From contig NZ_CP085524.1 of the NCBI RefSeq assembly GCF_004353525.1, positions 1,212,142 to 1,276,141 of the forward strand: a stretch of 64,000 bases of DNA. The letters run 5' to 3'. Position 1 is the first letter of the stretch. Every line of letters starts with the position of its first letter. This DNA comes from Zhaonella formicivorans (GTDB taxonomy: Bacteria > Bacillota > DUOV01 > Zhaonellaceae). Below the pieces are notes generated by a model. The model saw only the letters and a program-made list of their open reading frames with translations. It ran no database searches and was not told where the DNA came from. Below are positions 12,911 through 27,162 of this stretch, piece after piece. Both the position numbers and the translations under genes were made by a program.

Positions 12911-12928
12911 AGTTCACATTTAGTTCAC
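12911..12928 (+). repeat. 18-bp direct repeat AGTTCACATTTAGTTCAC, left copy (possible integrase arm site)
   Basis: The same 18 bases recur at 15179-15196, near the other end of the element and in the same orientation. Each copy holds two AGTTCAC heptamers. Such paired direct repeats near both att cores fit arm-type integrase or excisionase binding sites. The left copy overlaps the stop of the chimeric integrase ORF. Confidence 0.6.
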
Positions 12929-13783
12929 CGAACCTAAAATCCCAGCCTTAGAACCGGACTGCTCTCCGGTTCTTTTTTTGCCCACCAGGACGTCATTGAA
13001 CCGCAGCATGGCTTCATGCTCCACCTTGGGCATCACGTGGTGGTAGACCCGGATGGTGAAGGCCACGTCACTGTGACCCAGCCTTTCACTGACCATCTTA
13101 ATGTCCTCACCGCGCTTGATCAGCAGGGTGGCGTGGGTATGACGCAGGTCATGGAAGCGGATGTCAGGCAAACCGGCTTTCTTGAGGACGGGCTTAAAGT
13201 AGCGGTCCAGGTTGTCAGGATTGAAAGGTGTACCCGTTTCGCTGGGGAATACCAGCCCTTGGTCCTCATACATCGGTCCCAGGCGGAGTTTATGCTGCAT
13301 TTGCTGTATGCGGTGTTTTTTCAATGCTTCAATGACGGATGGCGGCAGTGAAATAGTTCGCTTAGAAGTTTTAGTTTTCGGCGGAACGAATTGGAGCTTC
13401 CCTTTTGCCGTTTCAAGCGTCCTCTGGACCGTCAAAAGTCCGTTCTGAAGGTCAAAATACCCTCTACACCAAAAATGTCTGTTTCCATATTTATATTTCA
13501 AGTTTGCATGCCTATCAAATATCATTAATGAACTTTTTCCTTTAAGATAACCAACGAAACTAGACACGCTTATTTTAGGCGGTATTGACACCAACATGTG
13601 TATGTGGTCTGGGCAGGCATTGGCTTCTATTATTTCTACCTTCTTGTATTCACACAGTGTTCTTAATATTTTCCCTATATCCTGTTTTATTTTTCCATAT
13701 ATCACTTGCCTTCTATATTTCGGTGCAAATACTATGTGATATTTGCAATTCCATTGCGTATGTGATAAACTTTCGGTATCCAT
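12920..13783 (-). pseudogene. In-frame chimera: IS200/IS605 TnpA N-terminus fused to a tyrosine integrase C-terminus
   Basis: Residues 1 to about 110 are an IS200-type Y1 transposase, opening MDTESLSHTQWNCKYHIVFA and carrying the HUH motif in CPDHIHMLVS. The sequence stops matching at HFWCRGYF, before the C-terminal helix with the nucleophilic Tyr. From DLQNGLLTVQRTLE onward it is the catalytic domain of a tyrosine recombinase, with the HDLRH box, GHSD and a VYHH tyrosine. The integrase N-terminal domains and first catalytic Arg are missing. Neither half has a full active site. It probably arose when an IS200 copy inserted in the integrase gene and a deletion joined the two. The ORF stays open for 287 codons. 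Confidence 0.85.
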
Positions 13784-16483: not shown

Positions 16484-16815
16484 TTAAGTAATCTGAAACA
16501 ATGCCAGTAATAGCCACCCAAACAGAGCCAGGGCCGAAGACCACAAGCAGGGAGGGCCCCCTACCTGCCTAAATAACTGCAGCTCCACGTTCAGGCCTAG
16601 CCTGGCCATGGTCAGGACCAAAATGCTTATTTGAAGAATAGACTGCTCAATGGCCGGAGCCATGAAGTTAAAAGTATTTACCAGGCTAAAGCCCAGGAAG
16701 CCGAAGACAAACCAGGGGATTGGTAATTGCAGTCTGGTCAGGGATAAGTGATGCCCAAGCCACCAGAAAAGGATAATAGCAAAGATTATGATTAATGCAT
16801 CTGGCACTAAGTCCT
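16484..16815 (-). pseudogene. YeiH-type (UPF0324) membrane exporter, C-terminal remnant
   Basis: The frame beginning near KFRLKDLVPDALIII encodes three or four hydrophobic helices, with PWFVFGFLGFSLVNT and MARLGLNVELQLFRQVGG, typical of the C-terminal third of the TIGR00698/YeiH family of putative sulfate exporters. The front two thirds of the gene is absent; the open frame upstream merely reads through the fapA gene. With the lysR remnant it shows that a yeiH-lysR locus was destroyed at the edge of the signalling cluster. Confidence 0.7.
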
Positions 16816-18659
16816 TAAGCCTGAACTTCTCTGGACCGGAGGTTTCCTTCCTTATCCAACCACAAGCGGATGCCTTTTTCCTCCCTATCAAAACGATAAA
16901 CCCGGTCGCCCAACACTATAGAAGCGTTCTCAAAGGCATATCCCACGGTAACCACGGCTGCCGGGCCAGCCACCACCCTGGTGGTGGCCCCACCCCTGGA
17001 CCCCATCTCTCCCACATGCACATCCCCCCTAGCCTGTATCTCGCCACCGCGAAATACCCCGGATACAGTCACTTTCTTACCAGCCTGAATCCGGGAATTA
17101 TAACAACCACTGCCCACCACCTGGACATCGCCGGTAGCTATAACGGTGGAATTGAGGACGCTTGACGCAACCACATCGCTTTCCGCAGACGGCGGGGACG
17201 CAAAGGCCTGTTCCCATTCCTTGGCTCGCTGGGCCAATGTTTCTACCTCCCGGACATCACGCACCGCCAAAGGGGAACGGACCAGCGCCCGTTCGACTTC
17301 CCGGATAAATTCTTCCAGGCCTTCATCGGCTAATCCCGGTGGCATAGTTTCAACCTGCTTTTTGAAGGTATTGACAGCAGCAGGAAGATGGCGAAACTTC
17401 CCCTCCAACAGCAACTTTACCAGGGGGCCGATACCGCGTTTAAGATCGCCCTGCTTGAACGCCGGGTGACCCAGCAACTGCCGGATAGCCGTGGTCATCC
17501 CTTGCAAACCGGCTGCCAAAGCATGAACCTGCGGCTGTATTCCTTGTAGAAAGGCTGGAGTTCCTCCTGCTGCCACTACCGATGCCAGGATATTTCCCCT
17601 GATCAAGATGGACCCAGTAGCTTGAACCCTAGCCCCCGATACCAGCCCTCCCACCCTGATATTCCCGCCCGCTTCTACCGCCATCCCTTCTGCCACATTT
17701 CCGGCAATTAGGATATCTCCTTTAAAGACAATGTTACCTGAAGCAAGGTCTACGTCACCAGCATGCACCAGTTCAGGTAATACACTTACTCTCACCAAGT
17801 CGCGCCCGGGGGAGGCCACAGGACGTCCGGCACGGGCCGCTACGGCTCGTTCACCGTCCCTGGTAAGTACGGCTCCTTCACCTGCAGAAAGGATAAAGTC
17901 CCGGGGCGACGGCGGCATAATTACCTCACCCTTGACGCTGGTACCGGGACGACCCGGCCTAGGCGGGTGTTTGACAGCCAGGATATCTCCTGCCTCCACC
18001 GAAGTAAAAACATAGCGTTCCCGGAAATCCACCGCTTCGTCTTCCCCCGCCAGTACCGGCAACTTGGAATCAGAGGTAAAAAGCAATTCTACCCGACCGT
18101 CTTTTCCTGGTTCTGCAGGAATGCCCCGGGCGATAACCACCTCCTTTTCATCGCAGGATGTAACACCGCGAGAACATGCTTCCCAGTCTACGCCATAGTT
18201 AATCCCCAGCCGGGATAACTCCTGCAATAGTTCGTCCCATGTGAGTGGTGGAAAACGTTCTTCTCGTTCCACAACCGCCAGTTGTAATATCCTGGCGGCC
18301 GGGAGATCCGGCAGTTCCCGGTAAACTACTATCGTAGGGAAAGTTCGCAATATCGCTTGCAGACCATCGGAAGAAACGGTCACAGACCATTTCCCTTCTC
18401 TTCGCTCTTCCACCGTTTCCACCCGCACCGTATCCTTCAAGGATACGGGGGTGGATTGAGTACACTCCCGGTCGTTAACAATCAGTCTTACCCCCTGGCA
18501 AGGTACCACCACCGGGTAAGGTCCCTCCGGTAGGTGCCGGACAACAAGGCGCCCCTGTTTCACAAAAGCATATGGACCCACCGCTTCTCCGTTCGGAAAA
18601 GCATTGTCCACTGCGCTCGCTGTTGCTGCGGGGGAGCCCCGGATAATCTCCTCTTTCAT
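16815..18659 (-). CDS. FapA/DUF342 polymer-forming domain protein
   Basis: The 614-aa protein belongs to the FapA (flagellar assembly protein A, DUF342) family. An N-terminal FapA domain occupies about residues 75-260 (DWEACSRGV, IARGIPAEPGKDG). A beta-helical region of short repeats follows, such as ASGNIVFKGDILIAGNV and VEAGGNIRVGGLV, then a helical segment and a second run of beta-turns. The GIPAEPGKDG and PGTSVKGE motifs are typical. Family members have been linked to flagella, surface or signalling functions. A GCAGGAGGTGAATTCCTA leader precedes the ATG. It follows the SpoIIE-type phosphatase by 119 bp, so it may be the output end of the cluster; that is inference. Confidence 0.85.
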   Translation of the reverse strand: MKEEIIRGSPAATASAVDNAFPNGEAVGPYAFVKQGRLVVRHLPEGPYPVVVPCQGVRLIVNDRECTQSTPVSLKDTVRVETVEERREGKWSVTVSSDGLQAILRTFPTIVVYRELPDLPAARILQLAVVEREERFPPLTWDELLQELSRLGINYGVDWEACSRGVTSCDEKEVVIARGIPAEPGKDGRVELLFTSDSKLPVLAGEDEAVDFRERYVFTSVEAGDILAVKHPPRPGRPGTSVKGEVIMPPSPRDFILSAGEGAVLTRDGERAVAARAGRPVASPGRDLVRVSVLPELVHAGDVDLASGNIVFKGDILIAGNVAEGMAVEAGGNIRVGGLVSGARVQATGSILIRGNILASVVAAGGTPAFLQGIQPQVHALAAGLQGMTTAIRQLLGHPAFKQGDLKRGIGPLVKLLLEGKFRHLPAAVNTFKKQVETMPPGLADEGLEEFIREVERALVRSPLAVRDVREVETLAQRAKEWEQAFASPPSAESDVVASSVLNSTVIATGDVQVVGSGCYNSRIQAGKKVTVSGVFRGGEIQARGDVHVGEMGSRGGATTRVVAGPAAVVTVGYAFENASIVLGDRVYRFDREEKGIRLWLDKEGNLRSREVQA

Positions 18660-18778: not shown

Positions 18779-20200
18779 TTAAATAGCCGCCAGATACTTG
18801 TTATCATCAGCCACTTTCAGCACTACCATTGTGATATCATCCTTCTGCGGTAAATTTTTCGTAAAGTCAGTAACACTTTGGAAAACCTGATCTTCAATCT
18901 CTGTTGCCGGGCTGTTCGCATACTGGATTAAAATTTGCCGCAAGCGCTCCAAACGGAAAGCCTCCCCCCTTTCATTTCGTGCTTCTACAATCCCATCCGT
19001 GTAAAAAAACACGTAATCATCATTATTCAATTGAATTGAATGTTCTTGGTACTGTTGATGAGGCATCCCTCCCAACATGATTCCCTTCCCTGGTAGTTGT
19101 TCACAGCTTCTCGTCCTCCCTTTTACAATCAGGGGGAGATTGTGCCCTGCATTGGCATAAGTAAGGATTTTTGACTGCGGATCGTAATCAGCGCAATAAA
19201 CCGTGACAAATGAACCCAGTGCTTTGAAGTCATCGTACAAGATGCTGTTCATGATCGTTAGCGTTTCTCCTGGACCTCTTCCTTTTTCGGCTGCGTTTCG
19301 AAACGCACTTCTTGTTAACAACATCAACATAGCTGCTGGAATTCCTTTGCCCATCACATCCCCAATTACGATCCGGAGTTTTCCGTTCTTTAGTATACAG
19401 AAATCGTAATAATCCCCCCCGATCGAGCAAGCAGCAATCGATGTGCCCGCAACCTGTCCACCCACGAATTCCGGGACTCCTGTATTTAATAATTTGCTTT
19501 GAATCTGCTGGGCTAACTGTATTTCTCTTCTTAAAGTGTTCTTCAATTCATGGGCTAATTGATTAGACCGCTTCTGTAATTCCTGCATCCCCCTTGCTAT
19601 CGCATGAAGGCTGACAGAAAAAATACATAAACAGGCCAGTATCAAAAACGGCGCCAACCGGTAAAAAGAAATCAACATCACACCAAGGGAGAGCAAAAAT
19701 ACGTGATATATCCCGCTATTCTTCCAATCAATTCCTTTCTTGTTAGCCATATAGCTGCTGAGCAACAATGTTCCGTACAAAGAAGCCACCGAGGCGATTA
19801 CACTGGTGTAAAACGAAAGACTACCATATGGTACATTGCCAGTTAACAAGTTAATCATTACCATAACGATGATCAAAAGCACCCATTTAAACCAAAAAAG
19901 CCAATGGCGCCAAGTCTCCTTAGGTTGAAGAATAATCTGTGTAACGGCAACGGCCAACATTATAAATGATGCTTGAACAACCGGATAATGAAAAGCCATA
20001 ATCCCGGCGAGAACAGGGAGTAATGATAACTCCTGAGCTGTTTCAATTGTAAAAAACCACTCGGTTAAAAGCAGGCCAATTAAGTATAACAATAAATACA
20101 TCCAGGTTTTCTGCCAACTGAAAATAATCGCGGAAGCTCCAAACAATCCGCCAACCGCTAACAACACACCCATGTACTTTGCACGACTTGAAGCTTTCAT
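18779..20200 (-). CDS. Membrane SpoIIE/RsbU-type PP2C serine phosphatase
   Basis: The 473-aa protein has six or so hydrophobic helices in residues 1-190, a coiled linker, then a SpoIIE/PP2C phosphatase domain (about 230-468). The metal-binding acidic residues are intact in IGGDYYDF, IGDVMGKG, YTDGIVEAR and KDDITMVVL. In partner-switching systems such phosphatases dephosphorylate a STAS antagonist, which then captures the anti-sigma kinase. The ATG at 20200 lies 1 nt after the stop of the STAS gene, consistent with a direct partner. A longer open frame to 20386 overlaps the STAS gene and lacks family similarity. Confidence 0.9.
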   Translation of the reverse strand: MKASSRAKYMGVLLAVGGLFGASAIIFSWQKTWMYLLLYLIGLLLTEWFFTIETAQELSLLPVLAGIMAFHYPVVQASFIMLAVAVTQIILQPKETWRHWLFWFKWVLLIIVMVMINLLTGNVPYGSLSFYTSVIASVASLYGTLLLSSYMANKKGIDWKNSGIYHVFLLSLGVMLISFYRLAPFLILACLCIFSVSLHAIARGMQELQKRSNQLAHELKNTLRREIQLAQQIQSKLLNTGVPEFVGGQVAGTSIAACSIGGDYYDFCILKNGKLRIVIGDVMGKGIPAAMLMLLTRSAFRNAAEKGRGPGETLTIMNSILYDDFKALGSFVTVYCADYDPQSKILTYANAGHNLPLIVKGRTRSCEQLPGKGIMLGGMPHQQYQEHSIQLNNDDYVFFYTDGIVEARNERGEAFRLERLRQILIQYANSPATEIEDQVFQSVTDFTKNLPQKDDITMVVLKVADDNKYLAAI

Positions 20201-20201
20201 C

Positions 20202-20516
20202 TTAATTAGCCCCTTTCTGCAAGGCCTCGATGATTTGAAACAACCCCACTGTGTTAAGAAGTTCAGATATATTCTCATTGGCATTTTCGAGGCTGACAGT
20301 AAAACCCAGTTCCTGTGACAGGCGAACGACTTGAAGAATGGCACCAATCCCGCTTGAATCGATGAATTCAAGCCCAGCCATGTCAATGACCAATCCAGAG
20401 ATATCAGAAAGTTGTTCCGTCTGACTGTTAAAAGTATCCACAGTGGAGATGTCCAATACGCCTTCTAAACTGAGCCTTACAGTCTTTCCTTCCGGACGGG
20501 ATTTTACGTTAAGCAT
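20202..20516 (-). CDS. STAS-domain anti-sigma factor antagonist (first copy)
   Basis: The 104-aa protein is a single STAS domain of the SpoIIAA/RsbV type. The phosphorylation site is intact in FIDSSGIGAILQ near residue 54. I chose the second ATG (20516) because AGAGGGGA sits 9 nt ahead of it; the first ATG is almost on top of that site. The start overlaps the stop of the fused kinase gene by 8 nt (ATGCTTAA) and the stop is 1 nt from the phosphatase start. This gives a tight kinase-antagonist-phosphatase triplet. Confidence 0.92.
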   Translation of the reverse strand: MLNVKSRPEGKTVRLSLEGVLDISTVDTFNSQTEQLSDISGLVIDMAGLEFIDSSGIGAILQVVRLSQELGFTVSLENANENISELLNTVGLFQIIEALQKGAN

Positions 20517-22632
20517 AATGCACATTCCCCTCTTTAAGAGTCGTAATATTGTTGGCAGCTACCTTTTCAGGTGTATCAACTAAGTTGATCTCTAACATGA
20601 TGGTTGTGCCCTGGGAACCGGTGCTCAGCACAATGCGATCCATCACCTTTAGAAGTAAATAGAACCCCCATCCCGCAGAGTGTTTGGTCGAGTATCCGGC
20701 CATCAGAGTTGTCCTGGGAAGTTCGGATAAGTCTATGCCGCTTCCGTTGTCCGACACGAAAATTCGGAGAAGATCACCAACCATATAAAGGCTCATTTGT
20801 CCCTCTGTCGCATGTTTCAATACATTGGTAACCGCTTCGGAAGTGCCAAGCAATATGTTATATCTAACCTTAGGCGGGAGAGGACGAGACTCCAGTACCT
20901 CCTGCACCCGCCGGCGGCAGTTGACGACATCCGTTTTCGTAAGGATTGGGTGACTGGATATGTATACCCCTGTTTTCAACTGTTCAATTTCCTGTTGTTC
21001 CACCAGCAAAAGTTTTCCCTGTGTTACCGAATAGATCACTTCACGATAAAGGTTTCGAACTCGTTCTTCTTGTTTTTTCTCATATTCGAGTATGTCAGTC
21101 ACATCAAAGAAGATAACACTGACCTGATCGCCAGAAGGAACACAGTAGACATCATATATCTTACGAGATTGCGCTTCTTCGAGTATTTCTCGCACTCCGC
21201 CCTGTTGTCTGCGTACTTTTTCCACCAAAGTAATTACCTGCTCCCGGCATGGAATATCGATGGAATCTCCTGCCTCATTTCTAAAGTCACCATCATAACG
21301 TACGATTAGAGACGCACCAAATTTATCCAACAGTTGTGACTGGTAAACCCTTTTCCGCACTTCGCTGAACACGAGGTTCTCGATCAGTTTCTCTTCAATG
21401 GTGGCCGGCATGGCCGTTTCTCTGGGCTCCTCCTGCAAATCAGCAATCTCTAATACAATTTCCACCACCTGTGGGTCCAGTTTGGTTCCCGCCAGTGCTG
21501 CAAAATCAGTTTGGGACTTCTTCTTGTAAAAAATGTGGTCGTACTGATCTGCAGCAGCAATAATCCGAGCTCCCAGCGGTATATGCTCTCCCGACATACC
21601 AGCAGGGAACCCTGTGCCGTCCCAGCATTCATGGTGGTAGCGAATATACTCGGAGGACTTGGCTAACCCGGCTATCTCCTTTACCATATCTGCGCCAATT
21701 TCCGGGTGTTTGCGATATTCCCTTTCTTCTTCGAGGGTAAGCGGCCCTCGCTTTTGAAAGATTTTTTCCTCCAGGTAGGTCTTGCCCAAGTCGTGCAATA
21801 GGGCCGCATAATGAATTGAATCAATTTCATCCTGGGACAGTTTCACCTTTTCCGCAATTTTGCGGGCTATCCTGCCAACCCTGGTGGCATGTCCTCCACT
21901 GATAGACAGTTTGTTTTCAGTTAATTGAGTGAGTGATTCCATCGTCGTTAAGTAGGTTTTCCGCAAGTTGATGAATAAGGAAAAAGCATAGCGCAGGGCT
22001 AAGAAAACTACAAGAACAAATAGTGTTTCAATCCAGAACTGCAGTTGATCATTTAGCTCATAAGAAAGAGCCAGACGCACGCTTAAAAGAGAAATGACCA
22101 AATGTATTAAAAGGCCGTCTTGGACCATTTCAATCCAAGTGGCGAAGTATTTTCTTTCACTCAGTTTAGAGATGATGACGGACATCAAGGTGATGTTCAC
22201 AAGATAGTAGAGAGCAATGGCCACAAGTAAACGGGGAACATCATACCACGTAAAAGTCCCCGGTATGCCCCCTGACCACAGATACCCGTATCCTGCGGCA
22301 ACAGTACAAATAATATACTGGCTTGTATTATATAAAAACTTAATTTTCTCGCTTTTAAGCAATGGAATACTGATTAAAGAGATTATAATCTCAATTACTA
22401 CCGCTTCTTGAATGCCGTAGACGGCCATTACAACGAAAGTGAAGGTAGTGGAGCCTGAAAATACAGTTCCGTTTGGTAATTCAACATAAAATTTTTCAAG
22501 CAATCCAGCAATCAGGCCAATTGCCAAAACAAAAGGCAAAAATTCTATTTTTAGGCCGGATAACATCAGCAAGAGAACAGCCATGCCGGTAGCGATGACT
22601 GTATATATAAAGTTTTTCAAATATCCTGGCAT
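20509..22632 (-). CDS. Membrane HD-GYP / PAS / anti-sigma-kinase (HATPase) fusion protein
   Basis: The 707-aa protein combines three signalling activities. Residues 1-225 carry seven or so membrane helices. An HD-GYP domain covers about 240-400, with HATRVGRIA, LLHDLGKTYL and HHECWDGTGFPAG; the GYP motif is GFP here. A PAS-like domain covers about 425-530, ending VIFFDVTDI. The C-terminus (about 570-690) is an RsbW/SpoIIAB-type HATPase with N box EAVTNVLKHA, G1 box DNGSGIDL and G2 box GYSTKHSAGWGFYLLLK. HD-GYP proteins hydrolyse or sense c-di-GMP, and RsbW-type kinases phosphorylate STAS antagonists and hold sigma factors. Such a fusion would link c-di-GMP directly to partner switching. The neighbours are the STAS and phosphatase genes. 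Confidence 0.88.
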   Translation of the reverse strand: MPGYLKNFIYTVIATGMAVLLLMLSGLKIEFLPFVLAIGLIAGLLEKFYVELPNGTVFSGSTTFTFVVMAVYGIQEAVVIEIIISLISIPLLKSEKIKFLYNTSQYIICTVAAGYGYLWSGGIPGTFTWYDVPRLLVAIALYYLVNITLMSVIISKLSERKYFATWIEMVQDGLLIHLVISLLSVRLALSYELNDQLQFWIETLFVLVVFLALRYAFSLFINLRKTYLTTMESLTQLTENKLSISGGHATRVGRIARKIAEKVKLSQDEIDSIHYAALLHDLGKTYLEEKIFQKRGPLTLEEEREYRKHPEIGADMVKEIAGLAKSSEYIRYHHECWDGTGFPAGMSGEHIPLGARIIAAADQYDHIFYKKKSQTDFAALAGTKLDPQVVEIVLEIADLQEEPRETAMPATIEEKLIENLVFSEVRKRVYQSQLLDKFGASLIVRYDGDFRNEAGDSIDIPCREQVITLVEKVRRQQGGVREILEEAQSRKIYDVYCVPSGDQVSVIFFDVTDILEYEKKQEERVRNLYREVIYSVTQGKLLLVEQQEIEQLKTGVYISSHPILTKTDVVNCRRRVQEVLESRPLPPKVRYNILLGTSEAVTNVLKHATEGQMSLYMVGDLLRIFVSDNGSGIDLSELPRTTLMAGYSTKHSAGWGFYLLLKVMDRIVLSTGSQGTTIMLEINLVDTPEKVAANNITTLKEGNVHYA

Positions 22633-22726
22633 GGCTATTCTCTCCTTTCTTCAGAAAAAATATTAAGGAAAAAAGGGGCGTAGAATAAATCATTTTCAAG
22701 TAACAGTCATGTAACAGGAACGTCGT

Positions 22727-22804
22727 TTAGCGCCATGGAATTCTAGCCACAGCCGCCAGTATCATGGAAGCCACGGTCAGCCAGAAGAAAACCTTCTTCA
22801 TCAT
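22727..22804 (-). CDS. Possible 25-aa hydrophobic peptide
   Basis: A short frame reads MMKKVFFWLTVASMILAAV and ends RIPWR. The start lies behind an excellent GGGAGGTGAT ribosome site. The product would be one membrane-spanning helix. It stands between the DUF5317 gene and the fused HD-GYP/HATPase gene on the same strand. There is no homology argument; the call rests on the ribosome site and hydrophobic pattern. Confidence 0.4.
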   Translation of the reverse strand: MMKKVFFWLTVASMILAAVARIPWR

Positions 22805-22862
22805 ATCACCTCCCCCCGGATGAATTGCTTCACCCTAATGATCTACGCCCCAAAGTTTGAAT

Positions 22863-23414
22863 CTAATGGCTATACTGTTTTAACATTCCCTTGTAAATAA
22901 ACCATGAGACGCCCAGCGTCACCGCAATGTCACCGAAGCTTACCACCATGCTGCTGAAAACAAAAGGAGGACGCAAGGGAATGACGTCAGCTAAATACGG
23001 TAGAAGGGTAGATTCCGTCAGCGGTTGGTGTTTTGTCACCCCTTCCACTACTACAGGTATGTATGAGGATAAACCCGCCCACTCCAGCGCATCCAGGGAT
23101 ACGGGCATCCTGCCGCCATTGGCGATTATCACCAAGAAATTGAGTAAGGTGCCGAGAATAAACAGTTTAATGCCCGGGATGTGGCGATTGCACCAGCAAC
23201 CATAGATTAACATTAAGTAGGAAACAACTACCCAAAAGGCAAAACTCCGGTTTATCAACAAAACGCGATGGTAAAGAAACATCACTATCAACTGTAGCAA
23301 TAACCCGGATATGATCATCCACTGCTTCCTTATTTCGGTTTCCGACAGGCGCCGCAGTGACCCTTTTTTAAGAAAAGCAATGATAATCACCGGGATTAGA
23401 AACTCGTAAATCAT
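22863..23414 (-). CDS. DUF5317 family membrane protein
   Basis: The 183-aa protein has five hydrophobic segments and the family hallmark NGGRMPVSLDA near residue 99, followed by an extracellular loop and a C-terminal helix. It starts at an ATG behind TTAAGGAGAGG. DUF5317 proteins are of unknown function and are often found near signalling or HD-GYP genes in clostridia. It lies 45 bp downstream of the second STAS gene in the same transcription direction. Confidence 0.75.
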   Translation of the reverse strand: MIYEFLIPVIIIAFLKKGSLRRLSETEIRKQWMIISGLLLQLIVMFLYHRVLLINRSFAFWVVVSYLMLIYGCWCNRHIPGIKLFILGTLLNFLVIIANGGRMPVSLDALEWAGLSSYIPVVVEGVTKHQPLTESTLLPYLADVIPLRPPFVFSSMVVSFGDIAVTLGVSWFIYKGMLKQYSH

Positions 23415-23459
23415 CGAGTCCTCTCCTTAATTGCAGTAGTCAGTAAGGCCCAGGATGAT

Positions 23460-23783
23460 TTAAAATGATGAGCGTTTAAAGTGTTCCTCACCCAAGAAAG
23501 CCGGTACGCCCATCACATCCAATACCTCGTAAACATCTTCGCTAAGGTTGCAAACGGAAAACGGCTGTTGGTTCTGGTTCAGATCTTTCCAGATAGCCAG
23601 GAGACTTCCCACACCAGTAGAGTCCACAAATTCTAAACCAGCCAGGTCGAAAACAATCAGCCCGTTAATAGGTTTATGTTTTTCATAAAAAGTTTTAAAT
23701 TCAGGTACAGTGGAGAGGTCAAGTTCCCCGGCTACCCTCAGGACGGTGGCTTGATCTTCTAAACTAACAGATAAAGACAACAC
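23460..23783 (-). CDS. STAS-domain anti-sigma factor antagonist (second copy)
   Basis: The 107-aa protein is a single STAS domain with the phosphorylation site in FVDSTGVGSLLAIW near residue 57. The GTG at 23783 is preferred because GGAGGT lies 7 nt before it; a GTG at 23792 overlaps that site. It differs clearly from the other STAS protein, so the cluster holds two different antagonists but only one phosphatase and one kinase. It is separated from the HD-GYP gene by a 159-bp structured gap. Confidence 0.9.
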   Translation of the reverse strand: MLSLSVSLEDQATVLRVAGELDLSTVPEFKTFYEKHKPINGLIVFDLAGLEFVDSTGVGSLLAIWKDLNQNQQPFSVCNLSEDVYEVLDVMGVPAFLGEEHFKRSSF

Positions 23784-23946
23784 GCTGAACACCTCCGGAC
23801 CGTCTGTAAATTACTTTATTGCTAAATGCGTCCTTCTTCAAACGCATTGCAGCTGCCACTCTATCTAACCTGATAGTAATGCGTTTCGCCGGCATACTGA
23901 AAACATGGCTCCGCGTCGCATTTTTCACCAACCTTCTGCCTATCAG
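23784..23946 (-). ncRNA. Candidate switch-like RNA structure between the HD-GYP and STAS genes
   Basis: CTGATAG and CTATCAG arms (23870-23876 and 23940-23946) can close a stem starting at the HD-GYP stop. The segment at 23878-23886 can pair with six bases at 23917-23922 or, exclusively, with nine bases at 23840-23848. A further AAATGCG copy lies at 23824-23830. I could not match it to a known riboswitch; it lacks the GEMM core. Confidence 0.35.
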
Positions 23947-24713
23947 CCCTTCCCGGCTGCATTTCCTTTCAATTGCCACAATATTACCAGCAAACGGTCC
24001 AGCCATTGGCTCTGGGCGTATACCAGCGGATGTGACAACGTGACGTATGAATCCGCCAATTGTACAAGCCATTGCTTTTCCTCGTCTATCTGCCTTTCCA
24101 GCCTGGCCGGGTCGCGATAGGTGGCAGTCTGCCAGAAAGGCTCTTTCGCCAGAGCAGCCACCAGCTCCGGGTCGAACTGGGAACCGGCACCCTGATAGAC
24201 TTCTTCCAGCGCTTCATACATTTTTAAAGGCAAGTGGTAAGGACGTAAGGAAACCATGGCATCCAGGGCATCGGCCAAGGCAATGACCCGGGCGCGCCAG
24301 GGGATCTGTTGTCCCCTCAGACCCTCGTATCCCTTTCCATCCCATCTTTCGTGGTGATAGCGGACCATTTCCACCAGGAGCCTGTCCCCTCCCCTCTCTG
24401 CAACCAACGAGGCGCCCCGCCAGGAGTGTTCCTTTAATTGCACCCATTCCTCTTCCGTGAGCGGTCCCGGCTTGTCGATAATGTCGCGTGAAATTAACAT
24501 CTTTCCTACATCATGGCAGAGCGCCCCGGCAATTAAGATTTCCTGCTCCACTTCGTCAAGACGGAGGAAAGTGCATATTCTCATGCATAGATTGGCCACA
24601 TTGGCGCTGTGGAGGAATAATCTGGGCCAGGACTCTTTCATCGACTTTAACAGGTCGCCTATCCCCGTTAGCTCTATAGGTACCGCCCCCTTTTTAAATT
24701 TTCTGTCCGTCAT
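23943..24713 (-). CDS. Soluble HD-GYP domain protein (c-di-GMP phosphodiesterase-like)
   Basis: The 256-aa protein is mostly an HD-GYP domain: LHSANVANLC, GALCHDVGKML with the HD pair, IDKPGPLTEEEW, RYHHERWDGKGYEGL and ADALDAMVSLRPY. The GYP signature is GYE. The HD and HH metal ligands are retained, so hydrolysis of c-di-GMP is possible but not certain. The ATG at 24713 is 10 nt after GGAGGT; the upstream in-frame ATG overlaps that site. Its leader holds a c-di-GMP-I riboswitch and terminator, making this a c-di-GMP enzyme whose transcription is likely set by its own ligand. Confidence 0.88.
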   Translation of the reverse strand: MTDRKFKKGAVPIELTGIGDLLKSMKESWPRLFLHSANVANLCMRICTFLRLDEVEQEILIAGALCHDVGKMLISRDIIDKPGPLTEEEWVQLKEHSWRGASLVAERGGDRLLVEMVRYHHERWDGKGYEGLRGQQIPWRARVIALADALDAMVSLRPYHLPLKMYEALEEVYQGAGSQFDPELVAALAKEPFWQTATYRDPARLERQIDEEKQWLVQLADSYVTLSHPLVYAQSQWLDRLLVILWQLKGNAAGKG

Positions 24714-24763
24714 TTTATTGTCGACCTCCATACCAGAACATTAACGGACAGACGTATTTTATG

Positions 24764-24794
24764 AACAAAAACGACAGCCCGACCAGAGCTGCCG
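24764..24794 (-). terminator. Terminator of the c-di-GMP riboswitch expression platform
   Basis: Seven base pairs (24794-24788 with 24778-24772, one G-U) around a 9-nt loop are followed by TTTTTGTT on the minus strand. It lies between the aptamer and the ribosome site, as a transcriptional switch would. Confidence 0.65.
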
Positions 24795-24831
24795 CAACAG
24801 AACACATTTAAAACAATAACAATACCTTTAT

Positions 24832-24915
24832 CACGGCAACCTGGCAGTCATACCCTCTAGGGCTACAGACCCATGGCTTTGCGCCCCACCCTTTCGGGTG
24901 GTTTGCCTTTAGCAC
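24832..24915 (-). ncRNA. Cyclic-di-GMP-I (GEMM) riboswitch aptamer
   Basis: Read on the minus strand, the sequence shows the class-I core in order: GGCAAACC, a GAAA-capped hairpin (CCACCCGAAAGGGTGG), GCGCAAAGCC, a second hairpin around CCCTAGAGGG, and the closing ATGACTGCCAGGTTGCC that pairs with the 5' GGCAAACC. The receptor bases around GCGCAAAGCC and the GAAA tetraloop are as expected. A terminator hairpin follows about 40 nt later. The downstream HD-GYP gene gives a fitting function. Confidence 0.9.
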
Positions 24916-25590
24916 AATAAAGTTTTTTTACCCAACATTTTAAGTGCATGATTCAATATCGCCGGAATACAAAAGTTTCTCCAGCGGTCAAAACGTTCGC
25001 GTTTAAAGAATCCTTCTTACAGGATAAATGAATGAGGAAACAATGCGGAAATAAATCCTTTGACAAGAAAGGGGTTTGATGCGCCCCGCTGTCAACCCCA
25101 CGAAACGCAAGGGCAAACCTAGGAGGTAGGTTAGAAAGACAAGTTAAAAATGCAAACGTTCCAAAGGACCAGAAGTGCAAAGAAAAAGGGGAGAAAATTA
25201 GAATTATCCATAAAATGGTACTAATTACATATAATACCCCCCCCCCCCCCCGAGGGGAGCATATGTTCTGGTAGCATAGTCTAACGCTTTCATCTTCCCG
25301 GTCATTCCTCTCCATTTCTTTCTCTCATAAAACTATTTCAACAAAAATTGCCGTTTTCCTGCCCTCCTTCCCCATTTTTCGAAATACAAATTCATAACTA
25401 CCGACACCAAAGCCATGTCTACAGATAGGATACCGGCGCCGGCATCTATCATGTGTTTTCACGACAAAATTCGATTTTTTATGTTAACTTAACTGCCGCA
25501 TGAGTGATTGCCTCATTCGGCAGCTTTGGCTGTCGAAGATTAGCAGAAAAGAATTTGGTTATATTTCCATAATTTTAATATTACTGCTCC
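24916..25590. other. Gene-free intergenic region with hairpins and a 15-C run
   Basis: No convincing gene is present in about 680 bp. Visible items are a hairpin with TTGACA/TGTCAA and GGGG/CCCC arms at about 25058-25095, a run of 15 C at 25237-25251, a CCGGCGCCGG palindrome near 25432, and a CTGCCG...CGGCAG hairpin at about 25492-25522. The minus-strand open frame 24953-25315 has no ribosome site and looks non-coding. Confidence 0.5.
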
Positions 25591-25654: not shown

Positions 25655-25975
25655 ATGGCGAGCAATAGTAAAAACATTATCTGGGAAATGCACCGGTTAA
25701 TGCTCCCAGAAGTAACTGAAGCAATACATCGAAAAGAAGAAAAAAAGAAACTGGTGGAGAAACCAATGCTCTCGGAAGATCGCTTGGAAGAGTTAGAGCA
25801 CAGCCTTCGCGAATGTCTGGAATTAGCACGGCCAGCAAGGTTTACGTACTATCGAGCCGGTATTATCAAGTCAGTGATGGGAGTACCTATTAAGGTAAAA
25901 GGCTCATATCTGGTCCTTTTTCACCAGCTTGGTGAACTTTTTATTCCACTGAAGGATTTATTGGATATTAGCTAA
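25655..25975 (+). CDS. YolD-like family protein
   Basis: The 106-aa protein resembles the YolD family, small proteins usually encoded directly before Y-family polymerases of the UvrX type in Firmicutes and their phages. The central LMLPEVTEAIHRKEE and the C-terminal beta region (YYRAGIIKSVMGVPIKVKG) fit. A GGGGTGA site precedes the ATG. The stop overlaps the polymerase start by one base. It probably assists or regulates translesion synthesis, which is inference from its constant pairing. Confidence 0.82.
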   Translation: MASNSKNIIWEMHRLMLPEVTEAIHRKEEKKKLVEKPMLSEDRLEELEHSLRECLELARPARFTYYRAGIIKSVMGVPIKVKGSYLVLFHQLGELFIPLKDLLDIS

Positions 25976-27162
25976 TGGGACAACGGGTAATAATGCTTGT
26001 AGATATGAATGCCTTTTACGCATCGGTACACCAGGCAATGGATCCTTCTTTGCAGGGCAAACCGGTAATTGTGGCGGGCGACCCCGATAAGCGGCACGGA
26101 ATTATTTTAGCTAAAAGTTACGAATGTAAGAAATATGCGAAGCTTGCAACCGGCATGCCTTTATGGGAAGCCAAAGCCTTGATTCCCCACGCCATTGTTG
26201 TTAAGGCGCAAATGGATCTATACGTTAATTACTCCGCCCATATCAATGAAATTCTGCATGGCTTCACACCCCTGGTAGAATCATTTAGCATCGATGAATC
26301 TTTTTTAGACGTATCTGGTTGTGAGAAACTTTTTGGTAACCCTTTGGAAATAGCAAAGAAGATTCAAAATAAAATTATGCATGAAGCCGGTATTCCCTGT
26401 TCCATCGGCATTGGTGCTAACAAGCTTTGTGCTAAGCAAGCTGCAGACTTTAAAAAGCCCATGGGCATTAGCACCCTCTGGCCGCATGAGATTAAAGAAA
26501 AGCTTTGGCCACTGCCGGTGAAAGAGTTATTTGGCGTTGGATCCCGCCTGGAAAGAAGAATGCACCTGCTCGGCATTAAAACAATTGGTGATTTAGCTAA
26601 CTTTGATACTCGGATTTTAAAGAGCCGGTTTGGCGTGGTTGGATTATACCTCTGGCGCTGCGCCAATGGAATTGATGATGGTCCGGTGGATCCTTATTCC
26701 CTGGACACAGCTAAAAGCATAGGTCATCAATTGACTCTGCCCAGAGATTATATCGGGTTCGAAGAGATTGCTACTGCTATTTTCGACATTTCGGAGCTCG
26801 TTGGCGCCAGGGTTCGGGCTGGAAAATATATAGGCAGAACAATAAACCTAAACTTAAGGGACAGCGATCTGTTCTACTACAGCTGGTCCCGGACGCTTAG
26901 GGAGCCTACGGATTTAACCGAGGAAATATATCAGGCGGCTGTAACATTAATGACCGATGTATGGCCACAGTGGCGCCCGGTTCGGATGGTAGGAGTAAGC
27001 CTTTCAAACTTGGTGCCAAAATCGGCTGTGCAGTTAGAATGCTTTAGTAAAAGGGAAAAGATGGGGACTATCAATGCAGTGGTGGATGTTCTACGGGAAT
27101 CATATGGCAAGAATTGTGTTCTGCGTGGCCGGTCACTGTTGCCGGAGGGATTATTCCGCTGA
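25975..27162 (+). CDS. dinB: Y-family translesion DNA polymerase (DinB/UvrX type)
   Basis: This 395-aa error-prone polymerase copies past damaged bases. The first catalytic carboxylate is in MLVDMNAFYASVHQAMDP, the steric-gate region follows, and the second catalytic pair is in FSIDESFLDVSG near residue 105. The helix-hairpin-helix thumb is at VKELFGVGSRLERRM and the little-finger domain forms the C-terminus. It is encoded with YolD behind two LexA boxes, so it should be induced in the SOS response. The UvrX/ImpB branch fits better than housekeeping DinB because of the YolD partner. Confidence 0.92.
   Translation: MGQRVIMLVDMNAFYASVHQAMDPSLQGKPVIVAGDPDKRHGIILAKSYECKKYAKLATGMPLWEAKALIPHAIVVKAQMDLYVNYSAHINEILHGFTPLVESFSIDESFLDVSGCEKLFGNPLEIAKKIQNKIMHEAGIPCSIGIGANKLCAKQAADFKKPMGISTLWPHEIKEKLWPLPVKELFGVGSRLERRMHLLGIKTIGDLANFDTRILKSRFGVVGLYLWRCANGIDDGPVDPYSLDTAKSIGHQLTLPRDYIGFEEIATAIFDISELVGARVRAGKYIGRTINLNLRDSDLFYYSWSRTLREPTDLTEEIYQAAVTLMTDVWPQWRPVRMVGVSLSNLVPKSAVQLECFSKREKMGTINAVVDVLRESYGKNCVLRGRSLLPEGLFR

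Follow-up and report, generated by a model that had tools for sequence, protein, structure and literature searches.

The window analysed here is a stretch of 64,000 nucleotides from a complete genome of 3.31 Mb in Bacillota (G000), which lies near Desulfallas sp. Bu1-1 (86% identity in the kinase described below). A unit on its minus strand runs from 24,916 to 16,815, with a c-di-GMP-I aptamer at the start and FapA at the end. Together with a promoter-like element further upstream, it comprises the following features:

25231-25268, minus strand: promoter-like element composed of a LexA-like box GAACATATGCTC (one mismatch), a G15 tract and TATTATATG, with G tracts in the same place in relatives
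24831-24916, minus strand: c-di-GMP-I riboswitch aptamer (RF03167, 72.1 bits against a gathering score of 59, E 1.5e-17)
24771-24795, minus strand: intrinsic terminator, with a 5' arm able to form an antiterminator with the 3' end of the aptamer, a predicted OFF switch
23943-24731, minus strand: HD-GYP phosphodiesterase with a C-terminal Spo0E-like domain
23985-24101, minus strand: the Spo0E-like domain (residues 211-249; motif SQWLD; PF09388, E 1.9e-7)
23460-23792, minus strand: STAS protein 1, phosphosite motif VDSTG
22863-23414, minus strand: DUF5317 membrane protein (PF17248, E 7.5e-45)
22727-22804, minus strand: conserved hydrophobic ORF of 25 residues with a strong ribosome site
20509-22632, minus strand: membrane kinase with about 6-7 TM segments, HD-GYP, PAS-like region and RsbW/SpoIIAB-type HATPase (HATPase_c_2)
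20202-20525, minus strand: STAS protein 2, phosphosite motif IDSSG
18779-20200, minus strand: membrane SpoIIE/PP2C phosphatase with intact metal-binding motifs (E 7.2e-53)
16815-18659, minus strand: FapA (DUF342), candidate target of the switch

Each gene of the operon is confirmed by both Pfam and NCBIfam. Along with the Rfam match, they recover on the minus strand every part named in an earlier note on this DNA, although the span given there, 20202-24915, stops short of SpoIIE and FapA. What that note called a soluble HD-GYP protein is indeed an HD-GYP protein, but its Spo0E-like domain had been overlooked; likewise the kinase and HD-GYP domains of the membrane fusion are as described, while its PAS domain is only PAS-like, since the Pfam PAS models give no match to the window kinase. 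The 25-residue ORF (22804-22727) and the poly-G promoter-like element upstream are additions to the earlier list. Moreover, the genes of the kinase and STAS2 overlap (-17 nt) and those of STAS2 and SpoIIE are 1 nt apart, and both junctions suggest translational coupling.

The leader of the window operon contains an aptamer above the curated score with an adjoining expression platform. The best-scoring model is the 'GGC' variant, and the window has an A against the consensus G; judging by the Vc2 structure, such an aptamer is probably a normal c-di-GMP binder. The 5' arm of the terminator, GCGGCAGCTC, pairs with the 3' end of the aptamer, GGTTGCCGTG, in a duplex of -20.1 kcal/mol against -13.5 kcal/mol for the terminator, and none of 200 shuffled arms pairs equally well. 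The same 3' segment closes the ligand-binding helices in the Rfam structure, and includes the C in contact with the ligand. Antitermination and ligand binding would then be mutually exclusive, which predicts an OFF-type riboswitch that lets transcription through when c-di-GMP is low. By our own tally 21 of the 27 operon loci carry a c-di-GMP-I aptamer in the leader, and in most of these the terminator 5' arm copies the partner strand of the aptamer, for example in L196 (-28.7 kcal/mol) and L209 (-24.9 kcal/mol), with 0/200 shuffles as strong; several leaders outside the GGC variant give a weak OFF prediction, namely the second copy in L009 and those of L155, L200 and L206. With an OFF switch, the phosphodiesterase gene would be on at low c-di-GMP, closing a positive loop.

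Upstream of the aptamer by 168-320 nt, the window and most operons of the Spo0E type have a tract of G7-G22, directly followed by TATWATATG or a similar sequence and preceded in one clade by GAACATATGTTC, which resembles the LexA box of Gram-positive bacteria. The element is found in the window and in L009, L153, L156, L198, L202, L207-L211, L286, L287 and L289; in L200 and L206 the G tract is downstream of the aptamer. As a background, 0.97 Mb of unrelated loci contain one G run of at least ten. The length of the tract varies among relatives, which would fit phase variation, and the element can be considered a candidate phase-variable, SOS-linked promoter. Divergent from the operon are a YolD-like and a Pol IV-like gene (25655-27162, plus strand), and upstream of them is AAACAAATGTTC, one mismatch from a LexA-like box. 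A ten-base G run is also observed within the HD-GYP-Spo0E coding region of L286 (7861-7870), where slippage would shift the frame.

The HD-GYP-Spo0E protein may start at 24713, which has a better ribosome site than 24731. Its HD-GYP domain keeps the metal ligands HD, H, HH and D as well as R-x-Y, and the GYP reads GYE. The Spo0E domain scores 31.4 bits with PF09388 (cut-off 23), its SQxxD motif takes the form SQWLD, and the S-x-x-L/V-D motif of the fusion agrees with four further Spo0E-like genes found in the genome. Full-length fusions are present in 10 of 324 genomes, nine of them in or near an operon of this type, while the tenth (L286) has a c-di-GMP aptamer upstream too. The Spo0E domains of L210 and L211 are below the Pfam cut-off, and many operons have no such fusion (L199-L201, L203 and L206). 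Spo0A is present in 32 of the 34 operon genomes. The fused Spo0E-like domain would link c-di-GMP to Spo0A, a direct route from messenger to sporulation; the open-licence literature on Spo0E with HD-GYP yielded no description of this fusion.

As for the partner-switching proteins, the window kinase keeps the N-box and ATP motifs of a GHKL Ser/Thr kinase (SEAVTNVLKH, DNGSGI, GWGF). Its PAS-like region is assigned by homology to relatives whose AlphaFold2 model has a PAS-like fold. For the soluble kinase of one relative, the model (pLDDT 81) has an HATPase that matches RsbW (6m36, TM 0.83) and SpoIIAB. The metal ligands of the kinase-fused HD-GYP are kept in the window, with D362 changed to N in L012; KKKS stands in place of the substrate motif R-P-Y-K, and the region after it is shortened. 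Given these altered substrate-site residues, the domain may be a sensor rather than a c-di-GMP-degrading enzyme. The D-S-S/T phosphosite is kept in 47 of 47 aligned STAS proteins, a set drawn up without window STAS2, which itself reads IDSSG, and the metal motifs of the window phosphatase are all in place (GGDY, GDVMGKG, NAGH, YTDGIVE, DDIT). By sequence, the kinase, STAS and PP2C proteins have what is expected of a partner-switching system. At the N-terminus of the soluble kinases of L198, L203, L207 and L210, four conserved Cys precede a beta domain with six predicted strands. A canonical PilZ receptor at this N-terminus was considered and rejected, as RxxxR is absent and a profile search matched no PilZ structure; the modelled layout is PilZ-like, which we regard as a lead.

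DUF5317 is a recurrent partner of 7TM-HD-GYP proteins outside the operon too, and a search of the open-licence literature found no description of it. The same genome has a second, paralogous DUF5317/MASE9-HD-GYP pair, without a kinase domain, at L162 (G000:C1:2176000-2194000). The 25-residue ORF between DUF5317 and the kinase is found in all close relatives having DUF5317 and the membrane kinase. The conserved long-range stem that encloses this ORF pairs GGGGCGUAGA with UCUACGCCCC and is followed by a U-run (22655-22856, minus strand), and L012 has one compensatory pair in the stem; a possible attenuator is suggested by this arrangement.

The co-occurrence in relatives on which the earlier note had staked its proposal is conserved, since the operon recurs in many related spore-forming bacteria of several families. 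Its conserved unit consists of the riboswitch, an HD-GYP protein (often Spo0E-fused), a PAS-like/RsbW-type kinase, STAS, PP2C, STAS and FapA. In close relatives the membrane set is still in place (L009, L010, L011/L013, L012, L153, L155 and L156/L157). The distant loci L158-L161 keep the HD-GYP-kinase, FapA and STAS, mostly with PP2C; the HD-GYP-kinase there covers just part of the window kinase, and FapA is still beside partner-switch genes. A search with FapA revealed a wider pattern, namely a soluble PAS-like/HATPase kinase, STAS, PP2C, STAS and FapA, frequently preceded by a c-di-GMP aptamer and an HD-GYP gene. At E ≤1e-100 the kinase has 27 matches in 26 of 398 genomes, and 25 of the 27 adjoin FapA; as for the other two, one is split between contigs (G076) and one is 14 kb away (G059). 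Moreover, partner-switch neighbours are found at 17 of 21 independent loci of the window FapA subfamily beyond the query set, compared with 2 of 20 other FapA genes (nominal Fisher p 6e-6, since the genomes are related). Conservation across families together with this comparison rules out chance clustering.

FapA is a flagella-linked protein, and that of the window has both the FapA_N and the beta-solenoid domains. It shares 86% identity with the FapA of L196, which has the soluble set, and 84% with those of L153 and L157, which have the membrane set. FapA accompanies either set, as a common target would, and is the best candidate target. The earlier note had named it as a possible one, and its recurrence as a neighbour in a large Bacillota sample now strengthens that suggestion. 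Several FapA genes without STAS are also near HD-GYP genes. A model of FapA gave no significant match in the PDB, only weak ribosomal L27-like and MinC-like ones, and for this reason no STAS-binding surface can be proposed. The flagellar FlhA occurs in 33 of the 34 genomes with the operon and also in 326 of the 398 sampled, so that flagellation is uninformative as an independent test. A truncated YeiH/Cons_hypoth698 transporter fragment (16484-16891, minus strand) overlaps the end of fapA, and in L184, too, FapA has a YeiH-like neighbour. Another ORF of the window (12920-13783, minus strand) by eye joins in frame an apparent IS200-type transposase N-terminus and a tyrosine-recombinase C-terminus.

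With these features, the best-supported reading, based on gene neighbourhood and precedent, is that the operon encodes a partner switch under c-di-GMP control, targeting FapA instead of a sigma factor, to which we give a probability of about 0.58. When c-di-GMP is low, the riboswitch would allow transcription, and the HD-GYP-Spo0E protein would further lower c-di-GMP in a self-reinforcing loop; it may also dephosphorylate Spo0A~P, so that sporulation is held back. The RsbW-type kinase would phosphorylate the STAS proteins and the PP2C phosphatase would reverse this, and the phosphorylation state of the STAS proteins would decide their binding to FapA and thereby how FapA affects flagellar assembly or the organisation of the cell pole. 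In the window lineage, a membrane kinase and phosphatase would have replaced the soluble set still found in relatives. The tie of the partner-switch set to c-di-GMP, as the earlier note had supposed, is favoured by the gene set and the riboswitch. What the sequence directly supports in this tie is transcriptional control by the predicted OFF-type riboswitch; control of the kinase by c-di-GMP is what we infer, as are STAS-FapA binding, the direction of the effect, the Spo0E activity and the sensed signal. Neighbourhood alone is no proof of a target, and FapA may instead be an input or a partner of HD-GYP.

A different explanation is that the switch controls c-di-GMP turnover, after the manner of SiaABCD and HsbA-HsbD, with a STAS protein or the HATPase regulating the fused HD-GYP or a diguanylate cyclase and FapA merely co-expressed. 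The fusion of HD-GYP to the kinase in the window, L158-L161 and L212 speaks for it, as do the GGDEF-type response regulator (GGEEF by eye) between STAS1 and DUF5317 in L010 and the known non-transcriptional partner switches on cyclases (PMC7647112). However, the fused HD-GYP keeps its metal ligands but has lost R-P-Y-K and is shortened there, the soluble kinases have no HD-GYP and still have FapA, and a cyclase is not a recurrent neighbour at the operon loci, so we consider this explanation rather unlikely.

It is also very unlikely that the kinase acts as anti-sigma factor on a sigma factor encoded at a distance (SigF, SigG, SigD or ECF), in spite of the likeness of its HATPase to RsbW and SpoIIAB, by sequence and in the relative's model, and of the 18 sigma-70 region-2 genes in the genome. 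Only SigF and SigG among these 18 are of the SigB/F/G type, with no SigB-like factor, and SigF is served by a SpoIIAA and a SpoIIAB of its own. No local sigma factor lies in or beside the window operon, just as the earlier note had observed, and none is a recurrent neighbour at the loci of relatives, where isolated ECF genes appear only at L179 and L213; the distant sigma factor that it had offered as an output thus loses ground. Least probable of all is that the unit mainly controls sporulation, with HD-GYP-Spo0E as the effector, the partner switch tuning it and FapA in a sporulation or cell-pole role, because many operons have no Spo0E fusion and the Spo0E activity is itself a prediction, even though the fusions gather around this operon and Spo0A is nearly always present.

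Returning to FapA as the target, a more comprehensive reading is possible but doubtful as a whole, in which the poly-G/LexA-like promoter (possibly phase-variable and SOS-linked) and the OFF riboswitch would set expression, HD-GYP-Spo0E would lower c-di-GMP and Spo0A~P, and the sigma-less switch would control FapA directly.

Among described systems, SiaABCD and HsbA-HsbD of Pseudomonas come closest. To our knowledge, neither includes FapA, Spo0E or a riboswitch, nor does SiaABCD include an HD-GYP kinase fusion or a second STAS protein. As here, SiaABCD of Pseudomonas aeruginosa combines a PP2C phosphatase, a GHKL kinase and a STAS-like antagonist with a link to c-di-GMP and no sigma target (PMC7647112, PMC8457831). 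Its target is the diguanylate cyclase SiaD, whereas the candidate here is FapA, and the window operon has antagonists of the STAS family, not of the SiaC type, and no GGDEF gene. One STAS protein in HptB-HsbR-HsbA of P. aeruginosa, with HsbD and FlgM, joins motility and c-di-GMP (PMC6482189; PMC7647112). That system differs in its target, which is either FlgM, an anti-sigma factor, or the cyclase HsbD, and in having kinase and phosphatase both in HsbR. A partner switch of the proteobacterium Sinorhizobium meliloti acts through a cyclase and is not known to involve FapA. This switch, for mixed-linkage glucan, acts through c-di-GMP (cited in PMC7647112). The kinase, STAS and PP2C families and motifs of the window are those of SpoIIAA/AB/E-SigF and RsbV/W/U-SigB, but the window set has no sigma factor in or beside it. 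In Streptomyces, RmdB and RsiG-WhiG also tie a c-di-GMP phosphodiesterase to an anti-sigma switch and sporulation (PMC13232838), but by a GGDEF-EAL protein acting on a sigma factor, without STAS or PP2C. As for FapA, that of Vibrio is bound by EIIA-Glc only when EIIA-Glc is dephosphorylated (PMC6877527), which is a precedent for phospho-dependent control of FapA, although the partner there is a sugar-transport protein and not STAS.

To sum up, Pseudomonas (PMC7647112, PMC8457831, PMC6482189) and Sinorhizobium (cited in PMC7647112) have sigma-less partner switches that act on c-di-GMP enzymes, and in the open-licence literature on FapA/DUF342 and STAS we found no description of a FapA-linked one; the conserved module is real, and is a variant of partner switching without known FapA-linked precedent in that literature. 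In Bacillota, the almost automatic interpretation of a partner switch is control of a sigma factor, and here FapA and c-di-GMP riboswitches are found instead. With this module the cell may have an undescribed means of choosing between swimming and other ways of life, and FapA, whose action is poorly understood, would gain a regulator and a testable mechanism. If the more comprehensive reading with its four decisions were true, it would be a lifestyle switch joining motility, damage response and sporulation without a sigma-factor output.
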